DNA of 22,861 bases, from the NCBI GenBank assembly GCA_001460835.1, contig CYKH01002092.1, positions 49,688 through 72,548 of the forward strand, in the 5' to 3' direction. Each line of letters begins with the position of its first letter. Within the stretch, counting starts at the first letter, position 1. The stretch comes from Bodo saltans. Lineage: Eukaryota > Euglenozoa > Kinetoplastea > Eubodonida > Bodonidae. Positions 9,645-22,861 of this stretch are shown here, piece after piece. A program made the translations under genes and the position numbers. Below the pieces are notes generated by a model. The model searched no databases and was not told where the DNA came from. It saw nothing but the letters and a program-made list of their open reading frames with translations.

Positions 9645-9909
9645 TCAAGTCAAGCACCCCCTCGTTTGGGCACAAACCATTTCTATGAATGACTCTCAGG
9701 GTTTTTCAAAGACCTGCTAACCATTGTGTTTTTTCATGTTTTCTTTGGCGCGTGAACGTTCAATACCCTCCAGCGAAGTGCAACCTGTGTTCTGCTCGGC
9801 ATCAGGAGGGCCAGCATCCACCTAGCGATCTTCTGTGTTGGTTCTTCGCTGCTCTTTGAAGAATTCCCAAGAAAACAAAATCTAAGTTTCAAAGGATTAT
9901 CGAATCGAT

Positions 9910-12753
9910 ATGTCCGTTGTCATCGACAGCTCGCTTCGGTTTTTCGGAGCTCTCTGTGATCAGATCACCTCAGACTCGAAGCTTGCAGTGAAGGAAGAAA
10001 TGATCGCTGGATTCGTTGCTCGCTATCGCGGCGACCTCGGTCTTCTGTTTAAGTTTCTGCTGCCAAAGTACAACGGGCGATTGTACCACTTGCAAGATAA
10101 GCAGCTCATCAAACTATTTGCACTGGCTCTCAACCGCACTGAAAAGACTTTAAAGGACGACGTCAACACAACAGGGTGCATTGCGACGACTGTTTCCAAA
10201 TTATTCGTCCCGAGGTTGACTGCAACGATTGACCCGAGCTCCGGGTGGTGCACGCTGCGGCTCGAGGATGTGGAAGCACATCTTGAGGCGTTGTCAAAAG
10301 TGACTCAGGAAGATGCGCAACTCGCAGCTATTCAGAAGTTTCTCAATGTTGCGTGTAAGCGTGCGGTTTTTATTTATCTTCGGCAAATCAAGCAAGACTT
10401 AAAACTTGGCGCCAACATTCGGTCGATCCTATCGGGACTACATCCCTCCGCAAATGACATCTTCAAGCAGTGCGCCAACATTCAAGAAGTTGTTCGCCGT
10501 GTCCAAGCAGGTGACATCGTTGTGGCACCCAACAATGACGACGAAGAGGGCAGCGCATCTCGAGCTCGCTCTCCCTCACCAGGTGGTGTTGTGAAAGGCT
10601 CCGTCACAGCCACGATTACGGTGGGTATGCCCATGTCGCCCATGCTTGCTGCGCCGTCAAAAGGTGTTGATCACGTGCTGACCAAATGTCCTAACGGTGC
10701 ATACTCTGAAACAAAGTACGATGGGGAGCGTATTCAAATCCATAAAAACGGCGACAAGTTCACCTTCTTTGCCCGCTCCCTCAAGCCAATGAAGGTTGAC
10801 AAGTTCGAGGGGCTTGAACCATTTCTTGTGAAAGCACTGAGTTCTGCGAGCTCATGCATCTTGGACGGGGAAATCCTGCTGATGGACATCACGACGTCAC
10901 AGCCGCTTCCCTTCGGCACCCTTGGCAAGCACAAGAAAGCACAATTCACGACTGCATGCACATGTATCGTGTTGTTCGATATCATGTATCTCAATGGTGC
11001 ATCGCTCCTGAACACACCACTGGACGAGCGGCGCAATCTGATCAAGACCAGCGTCAACTTCATTCCTAACCGCGTTGTCTTGTCAGAGATGCGGCAGGTG
11101 ACAGGGACACTTGAGCAACGCACGCACATCCTCAAGAAGCACCTTGGGCATGCAATTGCGGAAGGCCTTGAGGGACTAGTGATCAAGGATATCAAGTCTT
11201 TCTACGAACCAGCTGCACGACACTGGGTAAAGCTGAAGAAAGATTATCTCGATGGCATGGCGGACTCGGCGGATTTGGTGGTGCTGGGTGCGTACTACGG
11301 CAGTGGTAACAAAGGAGGCCTGCTCTCAACGTTTTTAATGGGTGTGTGCGACAAGTCAGTGCCTGTGGGTGGAAAGGGGCGATGGAAGACAGTGTGCAAG
11401 GTCGGCAACGGACACGACGACGCCACTATCGTCGCTCTCAACGCAACCTACAAGACGACCATGCAAACTCCTGTCAACGGCAAAGCGCCAATTTGGGCGG
11501 ATGTCCACAACTCGCACATTCCCGATGTGTTTGTGATCAACCCAGAGGCGTCTGATGTCTGGGAGATCATCGGTGCAGAATTCTCAACGACCAAAACGCA
11601 CACTGCAGCCACCATCTCATTCCGCTTTCCTCGTGTGCTGAAGCGGCGCGATGACAAAGATCCCAACACGGCAACAAGTCTTGATGAGTTGGTCAAGTTG
11701 GTCGAAGTGTCAAAGGAAAAAGCGACTCGAATCGGATTGGCGAGTGATTTGCCCAACGACGATGAAGATGTGAGTGTTGTCTCTCCCGTCACCGCTGCAG
11801 CACCACCACCACCACGGGTGCCTTTGGCGTCTACTGTGGTGATGTCTGAGGATGCAGCGCCATCGCTGTCACGATATTCCCGGGCACATGAAGACGACGA
11901 CGATTACCGCGCGCGCTTTGCGCCCATTCCGGCAACCGTCGTAGTGCCCATCGACGATGAAGAACAACTCCCACGTGCTCCCTCGTACCACACAGCAGCC
12001 ACCGTCACCTTTGCGACGCCCCCTTCTGCGTTGGTAGAGTACGTCTGCAGCGAAATTGCTCAGCCGCTCTCTACACCCGGCATGCCCCATCAAAATATGG
12101 TCATTCTCCACTCCACCGCGTTGAAGGGAAAGTGGTCCAACCGTGGGACAATGGGCAGCATCACGAAGTTTCTAGGCGAGGAGCCACAGGATGCATACAA
12201 CGAAATGTCTCCCACCATCAACATGGGAGAAGTGATCTTCTGTGAGGTGAGCAATCGAATGTCGAGCGGGAAGTTGTATGTAGGGACAATGATCGGCCAG
12301 AACTCGGTCAGCCGAGCAGGTGAGGTCCCTCAAGTGAACAAAGATGCGTTCGAACTATGCATTCGCAAAGGAGTGAAGTTTGCAGTGAAGTATGATGCGT
12401 CGTTGCACATCGCGAAGCTCGATCGTGTGACTGGGGTCGACTGGGCGTCTGTCGATGCACTGATAAAATCTCTTGCAAAAGAACATAACACTCGAATTGT
12501 GGTATACTCCCGAGATGGTGGCGCACTCGCTCGCACGAAAACATATGCAACCGTCCCTCCCAGCATCGAAGCGCCTGCTGGGTTCACACGCATTGCGACC
12601 AAATCACCGTCCCCTTCATTGGAAAGCCCCACTGCAGTGCACACGCCATCTATCGTGGGTTCCACTAGTCCTCCTTCATCACCACCAACACCAGCAGCAA
12701 GCATCATCACAGTTCCATGCAGTGCACACGCCATCTATCGTGGGTTCCACTAG
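9910..12753 (+). CDS. DNA ligase III-like ligase with ALC1-type macro domain (5' part of broken gene)
   Basis: The first 947 codons of a DNA repair gene. Residues 1-185 form the ligase DNA-binding domain (YHLQDKQLIKLFALAL). The catalytic core carries motif I ETKYDGERIQIHKNGDKF with adenylated Lys at residue 269, CILDGEILLMD (III), FDIMYLNG (IIIa), EGLEGLVIKD (IV), HWVKLKKDYL (V) and SFRFPRVLKRRDDKD (VI). The wording KYDGERxQxHKNGD, PLPFGTLGxHKKA and YEPxxRHWxKxKKDYL is that of DNA ligase III, not of ligases I or IV. Residues about 705-872 read like a macro domain of the ALC1/TARG1 type (KGKWSNRGTMGSITKFLGE near the start, DASLHIAKLDRVTGVDW and IVVYSR at the end). LIG3's N-terminal PARP-like zinc finger is absent. 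The last 13 or so residues (from CSAHAIYRGFH) are out of frame because of the tandem repeat at 12633-12801; the true gene probably continues to 14770. Confidence 0.9.
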   Translation: MSVVIDSSLRFFGALCDQITSDSKLAVKEEMIAGFVARYRGDLGLLFKFLLPKYNGRLYHLQDKQLIKLFALALNRTEKTLKDDVNTTGCIATTVSKLFVPRLTATIDPSSGWCTLRLEDVEAHLEALSKVTQEDAQLAAIQKFLNVACKRAVFIYLRQIKQDLKLGANIRSILSGLHPSANDIFKQCANIQEVVRRVQAGDIVVAPNNDDEEGSASRARSPSPGGVVKGSVTATITVGMPMSPMLAAPSKGVDHVLTKCPNGAYSETKYDGERIQIHKNGDKFTFFARSLKPMKVDKFEGLEPFLVKALSSASSCILDGEILLMDITTSQPLPFGTLGKHKKAQFTTACTCIVLFDIMYLNGASLLNTPLDERRNLIKTSVNFIPNRVVLSEMRQVTGTLEQRTHILKKHLGHAIAEGLEGLVIKDIKSFYEPAARHWVKLKKDYLDGMADSADLVVLGAYYGSGNKGGLLSTFLMGVCDKSVPVGGKGRWKTVCKVGNGHDDATIVALNATYKTTMQTPVNGKAPIWADVHNSHIPDVFVINPEASDVWEIIGAEFSTTKTHTAATISFRFPRVLKRRDDKDPNTATSLDELVKLVEVSKEKATRIGLASDLPNDDEDVSVVSPVTAAAPPPPRVPLASTVVMSEDAAPSLSRYSRAHEDDDDYRARFAPIPATVVVPIDDEEQLPRAPSYHTAATVTFATPPSALVEYVCSEIAQPLSTPGMPHQNMVILHSTALKGKWSNRGTMGSITKFLGEEPQDAYNEMSPTINMGEVIFCEVSNRMSSGKLYVGTMIGQNSVSRAGEVPQVNKDAFELCIRKGVKFAVKYDASLHIAKLDRVTGVDWASVDALIKSLAKEHNTRIVVYSRDGGALARTKTYATVPPSIEAPAGFTRIATKSPSPSLESPTAVHTPSIVGSTSPPSSPPTPAASIITVPCSAHAIYRGFH

Positions 12754-12801
12754 TCCTCCTTCATCACCACCAACACCAGCAGCAAGCATCATCACAGTTC
12801 C
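12633..12801 (+). repeat. Tandem duplication, 85-bp step, breaking the ligase frame
   Basis: An 84-bp unit occurs at 12633-12716 and again, identical by eye, at 12718-12801, separated by a single extra A at 12717. The net insertion is 85 bp, which is one more than a multiple of three. Copy 1 read in the upstream frame and copy 2 read in the downstream frame give the same peptide, beginning AVHTPSIVGSTSPP. This shows that a single ancestral frame was interrupted. The affected part is a Ser/Pro-rich linker between the macro domain and the first BRCT. Confidence 0.95.
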
Positions 12802-14770
12802 TCTCACTAGAACAGAAAGTGATTTAGGGAACTCACCTTTTTTTGATCGGTGCGTCTGCGCCGTGTCTCCATCGTTTGGACTGCGCGATGCAGCCACCAT
12901 CCGTCAGAAGCTTACCATGACTGGTGGTCGCGCAGTCACCATTGATCAGTTGTCGGAAGCCACCCACGTGATTGCGACTGGCGAGTATGACACTGGTGTT
13001 GCTGCAGCTGTGGGAGGGAAACGCCCAATTGTAAGCCGCGGCTGGGTGGATGAAAGCTTCGTGGCAGGGAAGCGCCTTTCGCAGGACTCTTACCTGATCG
13101 CAATCGCGGTACCTGCAGTGCCCTCTATTCCAACTTCGCGCCACTCACCACCATCACCAGCAGCCCCCCAAGTAGTTGCGTCATCTCCTCCCCAACGCGG
13201 GGGTAGTATGGTGTTTCTCACGCTGCAGGGGTGCAAGGTAGTGCTCGAGGGCTTTACTGGAAAGGAACGTGAGGAGTTGAACACCAAGATTTGCATGATG
13301 GGAGGCACTACACAAGAGCGCTGGAAGACCACTGGGTCGGACAAGAGCACGCACCTTGTGACATTCTCGATGACAAGCGAAGCGCAACGCGCAGCGGACC
13401 TTGGTGGTGTTGTTCTCAAGCGCTCGTGGGTGGACGAGGCGCTCGGGACTGGGGTTGCTCCAGCGGGTGCGCGGCTTGCTGCTCACCTCTGGGGTGACAG
13501 CGCCACTACTGTTGTGCCGCATGCAGCTCCCCAACCAGGCTTCAGCGCGGCGCAGTCGCCGCCGTCTGCCGCTGCTGCTATCGTCCATCGTGCTGGACAC
13601 CAGGCTGTCGTGACGACATCTCCTTACGTCGTTGCTCTGCCGCCTACATTGCGAGAGGACTCAGAACCAACGCCGCTAAAGCCTGCGCCCCCACCATCAA
13701 ACGTTCGCACAGCATCTCCACCCCAATCTCCCTCAACCTTCAGCCCAAGTGTGTCACGAGCGCAGTCGCCTCCCATAACGGCTGCAGCAACATCTTTTTT
13801 TTTTTTTTTACTGGCAGGGAAGTCGTTGTGCCTTGAGGGCTTTGGTGTGACAGCAACAGAGCAACTGGCTGCCCTCCTCGGTCCTGCAGGATTTGGCGCA
13901 ACGGTATTGCCTAGATCAGAAGTCCAAAGGGCGCCTTTGATTATATGCGATACCCTAACGGCTGTGTCGCGGCCGATGTGTGTAGCAGGGAGTGCGAGGC
14001 TGGTGGTCACCACGGAGTGGCTGCGTCGATACCACCAGAAAGGAACGTGGATTGAGCCAAAGTCTGAATTACGGTTCTTGTGCGGCGCAGCACTGGGGAC
14101 AACCAATCGTGCCGTCTCGCCACCTATCTCTCGTCGACGAGACCGGTCACCCTCGTCAACAGACGACGATGACCTCGCGCCACCTGCAAAATCTTCGCGT
14201 CAAGAGAAGCTCGGCCAAGCACAGCAACAAGAATGTCCCCCAAATCCCGTTCCCTCGCTGCCTCCCACACAAATCCCAGAGACCTTAGTCGTGGATGACA
14301 ATCGCACGGAGACTGCCTCCACCATCAGTGATCGGGTCGGATCCCCATCTCTACCCAGCACCGATGTGGATGAGGAGGCTCCAAAGCAAGCTGCAGCCTT
14401 TGTTGCGGCGGAATTGCCACCGTTGTTAGACGGGATGCTAGCCGTCATGATGCCTCTCAATACCGTGGAACGGGACGCAGATGTTGCCATGTCGCTGAAC
14501 GAAGCTCGGCGGTATGTCATCGCATTCGGTGGTGAAGTCGCAACTTCGATGGCCCAACTCCACGCGGAGTGGGATGCATGGGGTGCAAGGCGAACTCCCA
14601 GTGGGGTCACCCTTCTCGTTGCTGCAGCGCCGATGGCACCGAGCCGAGATGCGATCCACAACGCGATAAAGATTCTGACGACTGCTGGGATTCCAGTGAT
14701 GGGTGTCATCAGCAAGCAGTGGGTGCTCGATAGTGTTCAGCAGGGCACGCGACTCCCAACATCGTTCTGA
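12719..14770 (+). CDS. Four-BRCT C-terminal part of the ligase III-macro gene
   Basis: An open frame continuing the ligase gene one frame over, beginning within the second copy of the 84-bp repeat. Its first ATG (12917) falls inside a BRCT module, so it is not a convincing independent gene. Four BRCT-like modules separated by Pro/Ser-rich linkers can be read: about 12835-13105 (GWVDESFVAGKRL), 13216-13490 (SWVDEALGTGV), 13810-14090 (EWLRRYHQKGTWI) and 14430-14767 (QWVLDSVQQGTRL). Each shows the conserved Trp of BRCT helix 3, and the first two also show the GG turn. BRCTs bind phosphopeptides, DNA ends or partner BRCTs; animal LIG3 uses one to hold XRCC1. If joined to 9910, the product is about 1,590 residues. 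A run of 15 T (13795-13809) encodes Phe residues at the edge of BRCT 3. Confidence 0.8.
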   Translation, partial: AVHTPSIVGSTSPPSSPPTPAASIITVPLTRTESDLGNSPFFDRCVCAVSPSFGLRDAATIRQKLTMTGGRAVTIDQLSEATHVIATGEYDTGVAAAVGGKRPIVSRGWVDESFVAGKRLSQDSYLIAIAVPAVPSIPTSRHSPPSPAAPQVVASSPPQRGGSMVFLTLQGCKVVLEGFTGKEREELNTKICMMGGTTQERWKTTGSDKSTHLVTFSMTSEAQRAADLGGVVLKRSWVDEALGTGVAPAGARLAAHLWGDSATTVVPHAAPQPGFSAAQSPPSAAAAIVHRAGHQAVVTTSPYVVALPPTLREDSEPTPLKPAPPPSNVRTASPPQSPSTFSPSVSRAQSPPITAAATSFFFFLLAGKSLCLEGFGVTATEQLAALLGPAGFGATVLPRSEVQRAPLIICDTLTAVSRPMCVAGSARLVVTTEWLRRYHQKGTWIEPKSELRFLCGAALGTTNRAVSPPISRRRDRSPSSTDDDDLAPPAKSSRQEKLGQAQQQECPPNPVPSLPPTQIPETLVVDDNRTETASTISDRVGSPSLPSTDVDEEAPKQAAAFVAAELPPLLDGMLAVMMPLNTVERDADVAMSLNEARRYVIAFGGEVATSMAQLHAEWDAWGARRTPSGVTLLVAAAPMAPSRDAIHNAIKILTTAGIPVMGVISKQWVLDSVQQGTRLPTSF
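13795..13817 (+). repeat. In-frame 15-T tract followed by AG inside the BRCT region
   Basis: Fifteen consecutive T, then ACTGGCAG, lie inside the coding frame. They encode Ser, four Phe and two Leu at the start of BRCT 3. The arrangement imitates a trans-splice acceptor and is also a slippage-prone homopolymer. No evidence of use can be seen from sequence. Confidence 0.6.
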
Positions 14771-20806: not shown

Positions 20807-21004
20807 ATGTCCTCCGACGCAGACAAGGAGTACTTGAAGAAGCACGGAATTCCCACTCTGTTCAATGACCTAACTCAGCAATTGTTTCGCGACCGTCCAG
20901 AGCAGCCTGTACCGTATCTCATTCAACTATTGAAAGAACGAAAAGCCGCAAGGGATGCTACCAAGGCTGCCGATGGTGCTCAAGCAGCAACGTCGACCTC
21001 TTAA
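20807..21004 (+). CDS. Small RIIa/DPY-30-type dimerisation domain protein
   Basis: A 65-residue protein that is almost entirely one helical hairpin: DKEYLKKHGIPTLFNDLTQQ and DRPEQPVPYLIQLLKERK (about residues 6-47), then an Ala/Thr-rich tail. The IPxLFxxLxxxLxxxRPxxPxxYLxxLL pattern is that of the RIIa/DPY-30 dimerisation-docking fold. This fold binds amphipathic helices of AKAP-like partners and is common in cilia and radial spoke proteins as well as histone methyltransferase complexes. A flagellar adaptor is the most likely role in a flagellate, but this is inference. The ATG follows a T-rich tract (about 20744-20773) and AG at 20775-20776. Confidence 0.8.
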   Translation: MSSDADKEYLKKHGIPTLFNDLTQQLFRDRPEQPVPYLIQLLKERKAARDATKAADGAQAATSTS

Positions 21005-21224
21005 ATGGGCTCGACTATCAAACTACAGCATTGCTAGTGTGTTGTGTATTACGAGGAGGAGCGAGCGACTATTGTCCCCAGCCGTGGTTGCTCCGGAAAA
21101 CGTGCGCGGGGAAACAGTAACAAAAAATATGCAAGGTGTGCTTGGTTTGGTTCACGTTGTATTTCATGTCTCTTGGTTGTTGCAATCTTTCTTGAGGAAA
21201 AAAGTCATTTCATTTAAAGAGCAG

Positions 21225-22508
21225 ATGGCGCTAGAGCATCCGCGAGTCCAGCGACTATGGAACGCAGAGGCACTTGGTAGCGCGTCGCCTTCGTTGCTCG
21301 CATTCACTTCGTCTCCCTCTGCTGCAACAACATCGTCGCATCCCCCCAGCACTGCGCCATACGTTCCTAGAACGTCTGCAATCCTTCACGCCTCTGTGAG
21401 GGATTCGTCTGCCGTCGTCGTTGATGTTTGGATGCCAGACAAGCGCACTGGACAGCAACTGGTGCGTGTGACTACCACCGGCCCTTCTTCTACTGGTGGT
21501 GGTGTGACTGCTGCACCTACTGTCACGTCATCCACCGCTACCATTCCTTCCAATAGACGCATTCATGCTATGACGATGCCAATAGCAGCATCTGGTATCA
21601 CGCTTGTAGCCGACGATATCGGCAATGTGTTCCAGCTGAAAACAGAAGACGAATCCATCGCAAAGCGTCACAGAACTGAGAATGCGGCCTCCACTAGTAC
21701 TCACCATGCTCAACAGTGGACCCTGTCGCTGAGTGCAAGCCAGCACGCTCCTCAGCGCGGGTGTCTTCCCGCATACGGAGCGGCTGGTGGTTGGGTGGGC
21801 CTATTAGCACAAGGAGACTCACAAGCAATCTGCTCGCGAGAACATTTTCTAGACTCCCGTATCTTCGACACGGAAATCTCAGCGATTGTGAAGAGCATTC
21901 AGCACATGCACGGACCCACAGCCCTTACCGCTGTGACGGCATTGGGAAGCAACAGCGTAGTGTTTGCAGAAGGCCCTTTGCTTGCTGCCTATGATTCACG
22001 CCTCCCTTCTGCAAAGTCAGCAGTCAACAGGTCATCCCTCCCAGTAGCGGCCGCATTCTCGCACGTTGTGGATCTAGGGCCTCAGCGCCCACATGAAATC
22101 GCCACGTGCTCCTCAGACAGGTCGGTGATTATTTGGGATGTGCGTAACTGGACACGCGTGACGACGCTGTCTGCAGTACTTAAGTACGCCACGATGAGCA
22201 CGACGCCCCTCTCTGGTGGAAAGTTCCTCGTGTGCAGTGGCGTGGACTCGGAAGTCCGCGTCTGCTCGACTGCACCGATTGTTGGAAAAGCACAACAACA
22301 GCAGCCAATCGACTCAGAGGCTACTACTATTCCTGCTGTGTCGTCGTTTCGTAACCGTGTCAACGAGACGGAGCATTGCGAGTCCACTTGGCACGGCTCG
22401 TGGACCTCCGACGCAACTGGCTCCGTTGCGATTGGGATGGCCATCACAGGAGAAGTTTACGTCGCTCGTTCCATTGTTGCACCTAGTGGTGCCGCAGAAG
22501 AATTGTAA
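21225..22508 (+). CDS. WD40-type beta-propeller protein
   Basis: A 427-residue protein. One good WD repeat can be read near residue 290 (HEIATCSSDRSVIIWDVRNW), preceded by a weaker one (VVFAEGPLLAAYDSR) and followed by another (FLVCSGVDSEVRVCST). The N-terminal half has Ser/Thr-rich insertions and a possible blade around TLVADDIGNVFQL. It is probably a divergent seven-bladed propeller acting as a protein-binding platform; the partner and location are unknown. ATG 21225 is the first in-frame ATG after the likely acceptor AG at 21195-21196. Upstream in-frame ATGs exist but lie before that acceptor. The last codons and the stop are copied in the 179-bp tandem duplication downstream. Confidence 0.7.
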   Translation: MALEHPRVQRLWNAEALGSASPSLLAFTSSPSAATTSSHPPSTAPYVPRTSAILHASVRDSSAVVVDVWMPDKRTGQQLVRVTTTGPSSTGGGVTAAPTVTSSTATIPSNRRIHAMTMPIAASGITLVADDIGNVFQLKTEDESIAKRHRTENAASTSTHHAQQWTLSLSASQHAPQRGCLPAYGAAGGWVGLLAQGDSQAICSREHFLDSRIFDTEISAIVKSIQHMHGPTALTAVTALGSNSVVFAEGPLLAAYDSRLPSAKSAVNRSSLPVAAAFSHVVDLGPQRPHEIATCSSDRSVIIWDVRNWTRVTTLSAVLKYATMSTTPLSGGKFLVCSGVDSEVRVCSTAPIVGKAQQQQPIDSEATTIPAVSSFRNRVNETEHCESTWHGSWTSDATGSVAIGMAITGEVYVARSIVAPSGAAEEL

Positions 22509-22658
22509 GCGAAAGCATTTCAATTTGTTTTCTCACTTGGCACACTCGTTGCTAATAATACATTCGATACTGAAGGGCGTCAATACTTCAGGCTATCCCT
22601 TTACTCAAGATTTGGCAATGGTTGATTCTTTTTTGTTATCATCAATAGGCTTATCAAC

Positions 22659-22667
22659 ATGGCTGTT
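22659..22667 (+). pseudogene. Duplicated start of the eS1 gene (decoy ATG)
   Basis: The ATG GCT GTT of eS1 is repeated here 179 bases upstream. It runs into the duplicated WD40 end. The resulting frame stays open to the window end, out of frame with the real gene. It is a by-product of the duplication. Confidence 0.7.
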
Positions 22668-22825
22668 GTGCCGCAGAAGAATTGTAAGCGAAAGCATTTC
22701 AATTTGTTTTCTCACTTGGCACACTCGTTGCTAATAATACATTCGATACTGAAGGGCGTCAATACTTCAGGCTATCCCTTTACTCAAGATTTGGCAATGG
22801 TTGATTCTTTTTTGTTATCATCAAT

Positions 22826-22827
22826 AG
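22826..22827 (+). promoter_or_regulatory. Spliced-leader acceptor for eS1
   Basis: GATTCTTTTTTGTTATCATCAATAG ends ten bases before the ATG, giving a very short leader as is common for kinetoplastid ribosomal protein mRNAs. A duplicate lies at 22647-22648. Confidence 0.5.
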
Positions 22828-22837
22828 GCTTATCAAC

Positions 22838-22861
22838 ATGGCTGTTGGCAAGAACAAGCGC
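22838..22861 (+). CDS. 40S ribosomal protein eS1 (S3a), 5' end only
   Basis: The first eight codons, MAVGKNKR, reach the window edge. This is the conserved N-terminus of eukaryotic ribosomal protein eS1/S3a, a small-subunit protein near the mRNA exit. Only eight residues are visible, so the call rests on that short match and on the strong acceptor just upstream. Confidence 0.7.

Follow-up and report, generated by a model that had tools for sequence, protein, structure and literature searches.

A stretch of 22,861 nucleotides from Bodo saltans (GenBank assembly GCA_001460835.1, contig CYKH01002092.1, positions 49,688 to 72,548), hereafter the window, was analyzed in this study. It makes up the final 22.9 kb of its contig, which is 72.5 kb long and belongs to an assembly of 29.3 Mb and 934 contigs. 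The window probably carries one gene in which a LIG3-family ligase core, an ALC1-like macrodomain and several BRCT modules at the C-terminal end are joined, with the reading frame broken in this assembly by a tandem duplication; the encoded ligase would be recruited under the guidance of ADP-ribose. Our confidence in this reading, which is reasonable but not high, applies mostly to the architecture; the alternatives weighed below are not mutually exclusive, and they partly coincide with this reading as well.

Ligase core and macrodomain

The first part of the gene lies in the open reading frame (ORF) termed ORF1, which contains the following elements:

9910..12753, + strand: ORF1, 947 amino acids; LIG3-type ligase core, then ALC1-like macrodomain
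9937..10443, + strand: ligase DNA-binding domain (DBD), DNA_ligase_A_N (Pfam PF04675, E 2.9e-21, residues 10-178)
10639..11238, + strand: adenylation domain (NTase) with KYDGER (Pfam PF01068, E 1.3e-49, residues 244-443)
11314..11658, + strand: OB domain (OBD) with RFPR (Pfam PF04679, E 2.7e-11, residues 469-583)
12028..12516, + strand: predicted ALC1-like macrodomain, residues about 707-869, with several pocket residues changed

Sequence comparison assigns the catalytic core of ORF1 to the LIG3 type. The closest solved relative was human LIG3, with 433 bits over residues 6-602 (597 residues), and a LIG3 fragment covering the adenylation domain alone scored 218.6 bits. The best rival chains were an archaeal ligase, presumably that of Sulfolobus (155 bits), LIG1 (154 bits) and LIG4 (147 bits). 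Over NTase and OBD, the window ligase is 49% identical to human LIG3, against 33% for the LIG1 of the same genome. In an unrooted five-taxon tree, the window ligase and human LIG3 were set apart, with a support of 100, from human LIG1, the genome's own LIG1 and the Sulfolobus ligase. An initial annotation of this DNA had described all six ligase motifs in the LIG3 style, and the motif strings were found in order: those of the adenylation domain lie between 10708 and 11250, and SFRFPR of the OB domain lies at 11617-11634. A grouping of the core with LIG1 or LIG4, which that annotation had suggested checking, was not seen; LIG1 was set apart by scores and by the five-taxon tree, and LIG4 by scores only.

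An N-terminal PARP-like zinc finger is a feature of animal LIG3. The Pfam search of ORF1 gave no zf-PARP match at E<=10, and because this finger belongs to the animal form, we claim a LIG3-type core and not an animal-type LIG3. The LIG3_BRCT profile reached 23.7 bits, below its 27-bit cut-off. We read the protein as an ATP-dependent DNA ligase of the nuclear type, presumably located in the nucleus. A single-sequence search of viral contigs yielded no confirmed relative of the ligase core or the macrodomain (candidates in 2 and 5 stretches, respectively).

By sequence profile, the segment that follows the core belongs to the ALC1-like macrodomain class. With residues of about 707-869, phmmer retrieved BT1257 (2afc) at E 3.7e-7 and, more weakly, chain 5e3b (which we take to be SCO6735) at E 0.13. 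A profile was then built, with the window not included, from 30 bacterial BT1257-like proteins selected among the 80 top-ranking of 339. This profile scored the segment at 46.1 bits, the highest of 2,000 shuffles reaching 6.6, and hhalign gave 97.5%. Searched against the PDB, the profile retrieved human ALC1 over its full length (2.8e-21) and TARG1 over the last 66 positions only (8.5e-10). Because a profile built without the window retrieves both, the ALC1/TARG1-type pattern that had been noticed at the C-terminal side of the core is borne out. The general Pfam Macro model gave no match to the segment at E<=10, nor was the segment among its three matches in the genome, which lie elsewhere. 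Relative to the 30-protein alignment, the segment keeps a Tyr, a Pro, a His, a Trp, one loop Gly, MIGQ, a second His, and the final Gly and Trp.

BRCT modules and the interrupted frame

The second part of the gene is read in another frame, ORF2. In the list below, hhalign values are given for a reference set of 12 rows, for the 6 non-bacterial rows among them and, where a third value stands, for a set to which modules 1 and 2 had been added.

12473..14770, + strand: ORF2 as listed mechanically, 765 amino acids; BRCT part, with coding signal from about 12800 onward
12633..12801, + strand: 85-bp tandem duplication (TRF, 2.0 copies, 100%; 84-base identity run)
12812..13093, + strand: BRCT module 1 (Pfam BRCT_2 0.012, below cut-off; hhalign 78.6%, 62.7%)
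13220..13459, + strand: BRCT module 2 (Pfam BRCT 5.3e-8; hhalign 96.8%, 96.2%)
13808..14053, + strand: BRCT-like module 3, probable only (no Pfam BRCT match at E<=10; hhalign 22.8%, 49.2%, 21.2%)
14411..14755, + strand: BRCT-like module 4, probable only (Pfam BRCT_2 0.0016, below cut-off; hhalign 6.4%, 7.6%)

ORF1 ends at 12753. ORF1 and ORF2 lie in different frames because they are separated by the 85-bp tandem duplication, the length of whose unit is not divisible by three. The two copies of the repeat are identical at 84 of 85 bases, and the 28-residue peptide AVHTPSIVGSTSPPSSPPTPAASIITVP occurs in both frames: copy 1 encodes it at the end of ORF1, and copy 2 in ORF2. A codon model was trained on 21 other genes of the same genome and applied in 150-bp scanning windows. 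The ORF1 frame scored best in all 18 of these between 9910 and 12632, and the ORF2 frame in all 13 between 12803 and 14767. The codon signal thus switches frame across the duplication, and the same 28-residue peptide is present in both frames; for these reasons, ORF1 and ORF2 are best read as one gene of about 1,590 amino acids with an interrupted frame, which in its intact form would encode a single polypeptide. The one chain described in the initial annotation is therefore not what the assembly spells out, its two parts being in different frames, while a single interrupted gene is the reading that fits best. The repeat itself is located in a low-complexity linker between the macrodomain and the BRCT modules. 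At the other end of the gene, a stop codon stands at 9883 in the ORF1 frame, with no in-frame ATG between 9883 and 9910. Two further observations favor one gene. ORF2 lacks an in-frame ATG between 12545 and 12917, and it overlaps ORF1 by 281 bases, whereas of the ten other neighboring ORF pairs listed, nine have gaps of 66-867 bases and the tenth an overlap of 14.

The same annotation had counted four BRCT modules. By profile comparison, module 2 is certain and module 1 well supported, whereas modules 3 and 4 are probable only, so that two BRCT modules are safe and four are probable. When the whole of ORF2 was used as a query against solved chains, an XRCC1 BRCT was matched in module 2 at E 1.3e-4; the best solved match of module 1 was a TopBP1 BRCT, and that of module 2 was the XRCC1 BRCT. 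The 12-row reference set consisted of 6 bacterial loci (kept from 12: L125, L126, L131, L132, L134 and L135), 3 PDB chains and 3 sequences of the same genome. The bacterial rows lower the value of module 3, which is 22.8% with them and 49.2% without. Against the third set, module 4 reached 33.3%, over 20 residues only. For each of the four modules, none of 60 shuffles reached the true hhalign score with either of the first two sets, and the same held for modules 3 and 4 with the third (0/60); the score of a linker control was reached by 6/60 and 17/60 shuffles.

Near-exact tandem duplications with a period of 20-600 were scanned for in 21 stretches of this assembly, totalling 218,858 bases, of which 9,065 were N. 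Two were found in the window, the 85-bp one and one of 179 bp near the contig end, and two (29 and 408 bp) in the 20 other stretches. The 179-bp duplication is exact (window 22489-22847), ends 14 bases from the contig end, overlies the end of an ORF at 20955-22508 and may be an assembly artefact. The 408-bp duplication (L029:1986-2801) is also exact and lies inside a 1357-codon stop-to-stop open frame. A search of the assembly with the stretch 11900-13500 retrieved the stretch itself only, and hence no second allele.

Ligases, ADP-ribose enzymes and XRCC1 in the same genome

The ligases usually discussed for kinetoplastids are LIG1 and LigK. The ligase adenylation family had six matches in the genome: a LIG1 with identified Pfam domains and 53% identity to human LIG1, the window gene, a tandem pair of small ligases read as LigK-like, and two further loci, L019 and L023. 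LIG4 was the closest solved chain of neither the window gene nor L019, the two that were compared. L019:3947-6880 (G000:C494) encodes 977 amino acids and appears to be a second LIG3-like ligase, very divergent, in which KYDGER is kept. Pfam found no DBD or OB domain in it at E<=10, and in a six-taxon tree it formed a very long branch with a support of 40. A macrodomain at its C-terminus was suspected from a similarity of 26 amino acids (BLASTP E 7e-4) and was rejected (hhalign against the macrodomain family, 0.2%). L023:2-1033 (G000:C105) is a further small ligase with DNA_ligase_OB_2, located at the start of its contig; its N-terminal stretch is Cys-rich.

The PARP family is greatly expanded and spread over many contigs, with 27 matches, 25 of them over the cut-off; most span only part of the profile. 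The best PARP, of 739 amino acids, has a WWE-WGR-PARP_reg-PARP layout with both regulatory and catalytic domains. Two PARG matches and the three Pfam Macro matches mentioned above further fill out an ADP-ribose system. The only zf-PARP match in the genome is a protein of 275 amino acids (L042:1483-2310, G000:C409), in which an N-terminal zf-PARP (1.2e-17) is combined with a PBZ domain (1.9e-14); a second PBZ-like C-C-H-H stretch is perhaps present at its end.

XRCC1 was not found in six-frame searches of this one assembly. The only candidate, an XRCC1_N match at L020:3378-6215, was rejected as a CEP104 protein (CEP104_N 1.4e-37). That the XRCC1_N profile exceeds its cut-off on a CEP104 protein is a trap for the automatic annotation of XRCC1. 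The BRCT search of the genome found, outside the window, only Pescadillo and two FHA-BRCT proteins. The latter (L040:278-1705 and L041:199-2028) are similar to each other, and their layout is read as NBS1-like. The assembly also contains two exact matches to what we take to be the 3' half of the kinetoplastid spliced leader; a control with the reversed pattern gave 0. Together with the LigK-like tandem pair, these matches make a kinetoplastid or near relative the likely host.

Proposed role, alternatives and comparison with known systems

The domain content suggests the following scheme. The cell's own PARP1/2-like enzyme would mark a broken strand with ADP-ribose, and the macrodomain, perhaps together with BRCT modules, would bring the ligase to this mark. 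The DBD-NTase-OBD core would then close on the nick and seal it, catalysis being expected from homology to a well-studied core. The remaining BRCT modules may dock partners; lying on the ligase chain itself, they could take over the part that XRCC1 plays for LIG3 in animals. We infer the binding of ADP-ribose, the recruitment and the XRCC1-like role of the BRCTs. The idea that the macrodomain replaces the zinc finger, put forward in the initial annotation, agrees with an ORF without zf-PARP; however, the separate zf-PARP and PBZ protein could supply nick and poly(ADP-ribose) (PAR) recognition in trans, a guess from its domain content. The self-contained repair machine envisaged in the same annotation is likewise a proposal.

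Several observations weigh against this scheme or the architecture behind it. As written, the assembly encodes a 947-residue ligase-macrodomain protein without BRCT modules, and the linker at about 12,600-12,850 has no clear codon signal in either frame. BRCT-3 and BRCT-4 are weak. The absence of XRCC1 is drawn from six-frame searches of a single, possibly incomplete assembly, and the genome BRCT search is insensitive, because it detected only one of the window gene's own modules. In the macrodomain, the G-D-A-T motif has become S-E-I-A, the N-D following the histidine has become A-L, and R-Y has become N-K; the G-C-G-L-A-G-G loop is shorter, with most of its residues exchanged. With its pocket partly changed, the domain may still bind ADP-ribose or PAR.

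These changed pocket residues favor a reading in which the macrodomain has lost ADP-ribose binding and now acts as a spacer, structural or for protein docking, while targeting of the ligase is left to the BRCTs alone. In this reading the duplication arose in the assembly; the exact tandem duplication of 179 bp lies at the very contig end, where assemblies often err. However, the alignment places a Glu at the position of ALC1 Asp723, so that an acidic residue is retained; the APL macrodomain of Dictyostelium, which binds PAR in vitro, likewise has Glu there (PMC5087659). The organism also has many PARP-family matches. We regard the spacer as a real possibility on the unlikely side. It is improbable that the duplication is real and fixed in the strain, with a working protein of 947 residues (LIG3 core and macrodomain) and a BRCT part that is a dying remnant or has its own transcript. 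The assembly reads so, the stretch has no second copy, and real tandem duplications may exist, since the one of 408 bp lies inside a long open frame. Nevertheless, the BRCT frame is open over 655 codons with coding signal in 13 of 13 scanning windows, and if ORF2 were a gene of its own, it would need to begin at one of the in-frame ATGs: 12515 (in the last codons of the macrodomain in the ORF1 frame) or 12545, both inside ORF1, or the next one, 12917, inside BRCT-1. Least probable of all is an eraser of the TARG1/DarG/SCO6735 kind, a hydrolase stripping ADP-ribose from an end or a protein before sealing: the closest solved relatives by sequence, BT1257 and 5e3b, are bacterial, and activity without the TARG1 catalytic pair is conceivable because SCO6735 is a hydrolase that lacks it (PMC7050489), but the N-D, R-Y and GCGLAGG conserved in the bacterial family are lost in the window.

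An interrupted LIG3-macrodomain-BRCT gene, the reading preferred here, was compared with known systems. The initial annotation knew of no described protein with such an architecture, which is too strong: a DNA ligase III orthologue of Dictyostelium discoideum that contains a macrodomain was reported in 2016 (PMC5087659; repeated in PMC8529158). The profiles that detected it had been started from human macrodomains, among them the ALC1 one. Its host is an amoebozoan and not a kinetoplastid-type flagellate, and the comparison covers the presence of a macrodomain in a LIG3 orthologue. Vertebrate LIG3 (PDB 3l2p, 10ye) shares the DBD-NTase-OBD core, with the NTase and OBD identity given above, and has a BRCT at its C-terminus (PMC4488670); in animals this single BRCT pairs with XRCC1 (PMC10386641). 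The window ORF differs in having no N-terminal zf-PARP, an added macrodomain and several BRCTs instead of one, in a genome where no XRCC1 was found. The window BRCT-2 and BRCT-1 resemble those of XRCC1 and TopBP1, and would stand in cis to the ligase if the frame were intact.

The macrodomain is of the same class, by profile, as those of ALC1/CHD1L, TARG1, BT1257 and 5e3b, with the Tyr, Pro, His, Trp, MIGQ, Gly and Trp landmarks in common; in the window, however, the pocket loops have diverged, and the domain is joined to a ligase, being neither attached to a remodeller nor stand-alone. Macrodomains of the ALC1 class are readily found in animals and scattered among bacteria (PMC7050489). According to an analysis of 2009, LIG3 arose by duplication of LIG4 when the unikonts emerged (PMC2806865), and a review citing a 2011 survey describes a spotty distribution of LIG3 ancestors among divergent branches (PMC4488670); early-branching LIG3 genes may already be listed in that survey. 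No report of LIG3 in kinetoplastids or Euglenozoa was found in searches of one open-licence library. Thus, a macrodomain-bearing LIG3 has itself been reported already; what is new is the kinetoplastid-type host, the several BRCT modules and the apparently XRCC1-free setting.

A wider scenario, which we consider doubtful, is that the combination of LIG3 with an ADP-ribose reader dates back to early eukaryotes and was invented neither by animals nor by unikonts. The flagellate would then use a LIG3-macrodomain-BRCT chain as an XRCC1-free enzyme of single-strand-break repair, with the LIG3-type zinc finger on the separate zf-PARP and PBZ protein, and vertebrate LIG3 would later have swapped the macrodomain for a zinc finger and XRCC1.

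In sum, the finding is of real evolutionary interest, not an unprecedented machine. It extends the ligases of kinetoplastids beyond the usually discussed LIG1 and LigK. That a clear LIG3-type core occurs in a kinetoplastid-type genome, and with a macrodomain like its Dictyostelium counterpart, speaks for either an ancient origin or a transfer, and makes it testable whether the direct reading of ADP-ribose by a ligase preceded the XRCC1 route.

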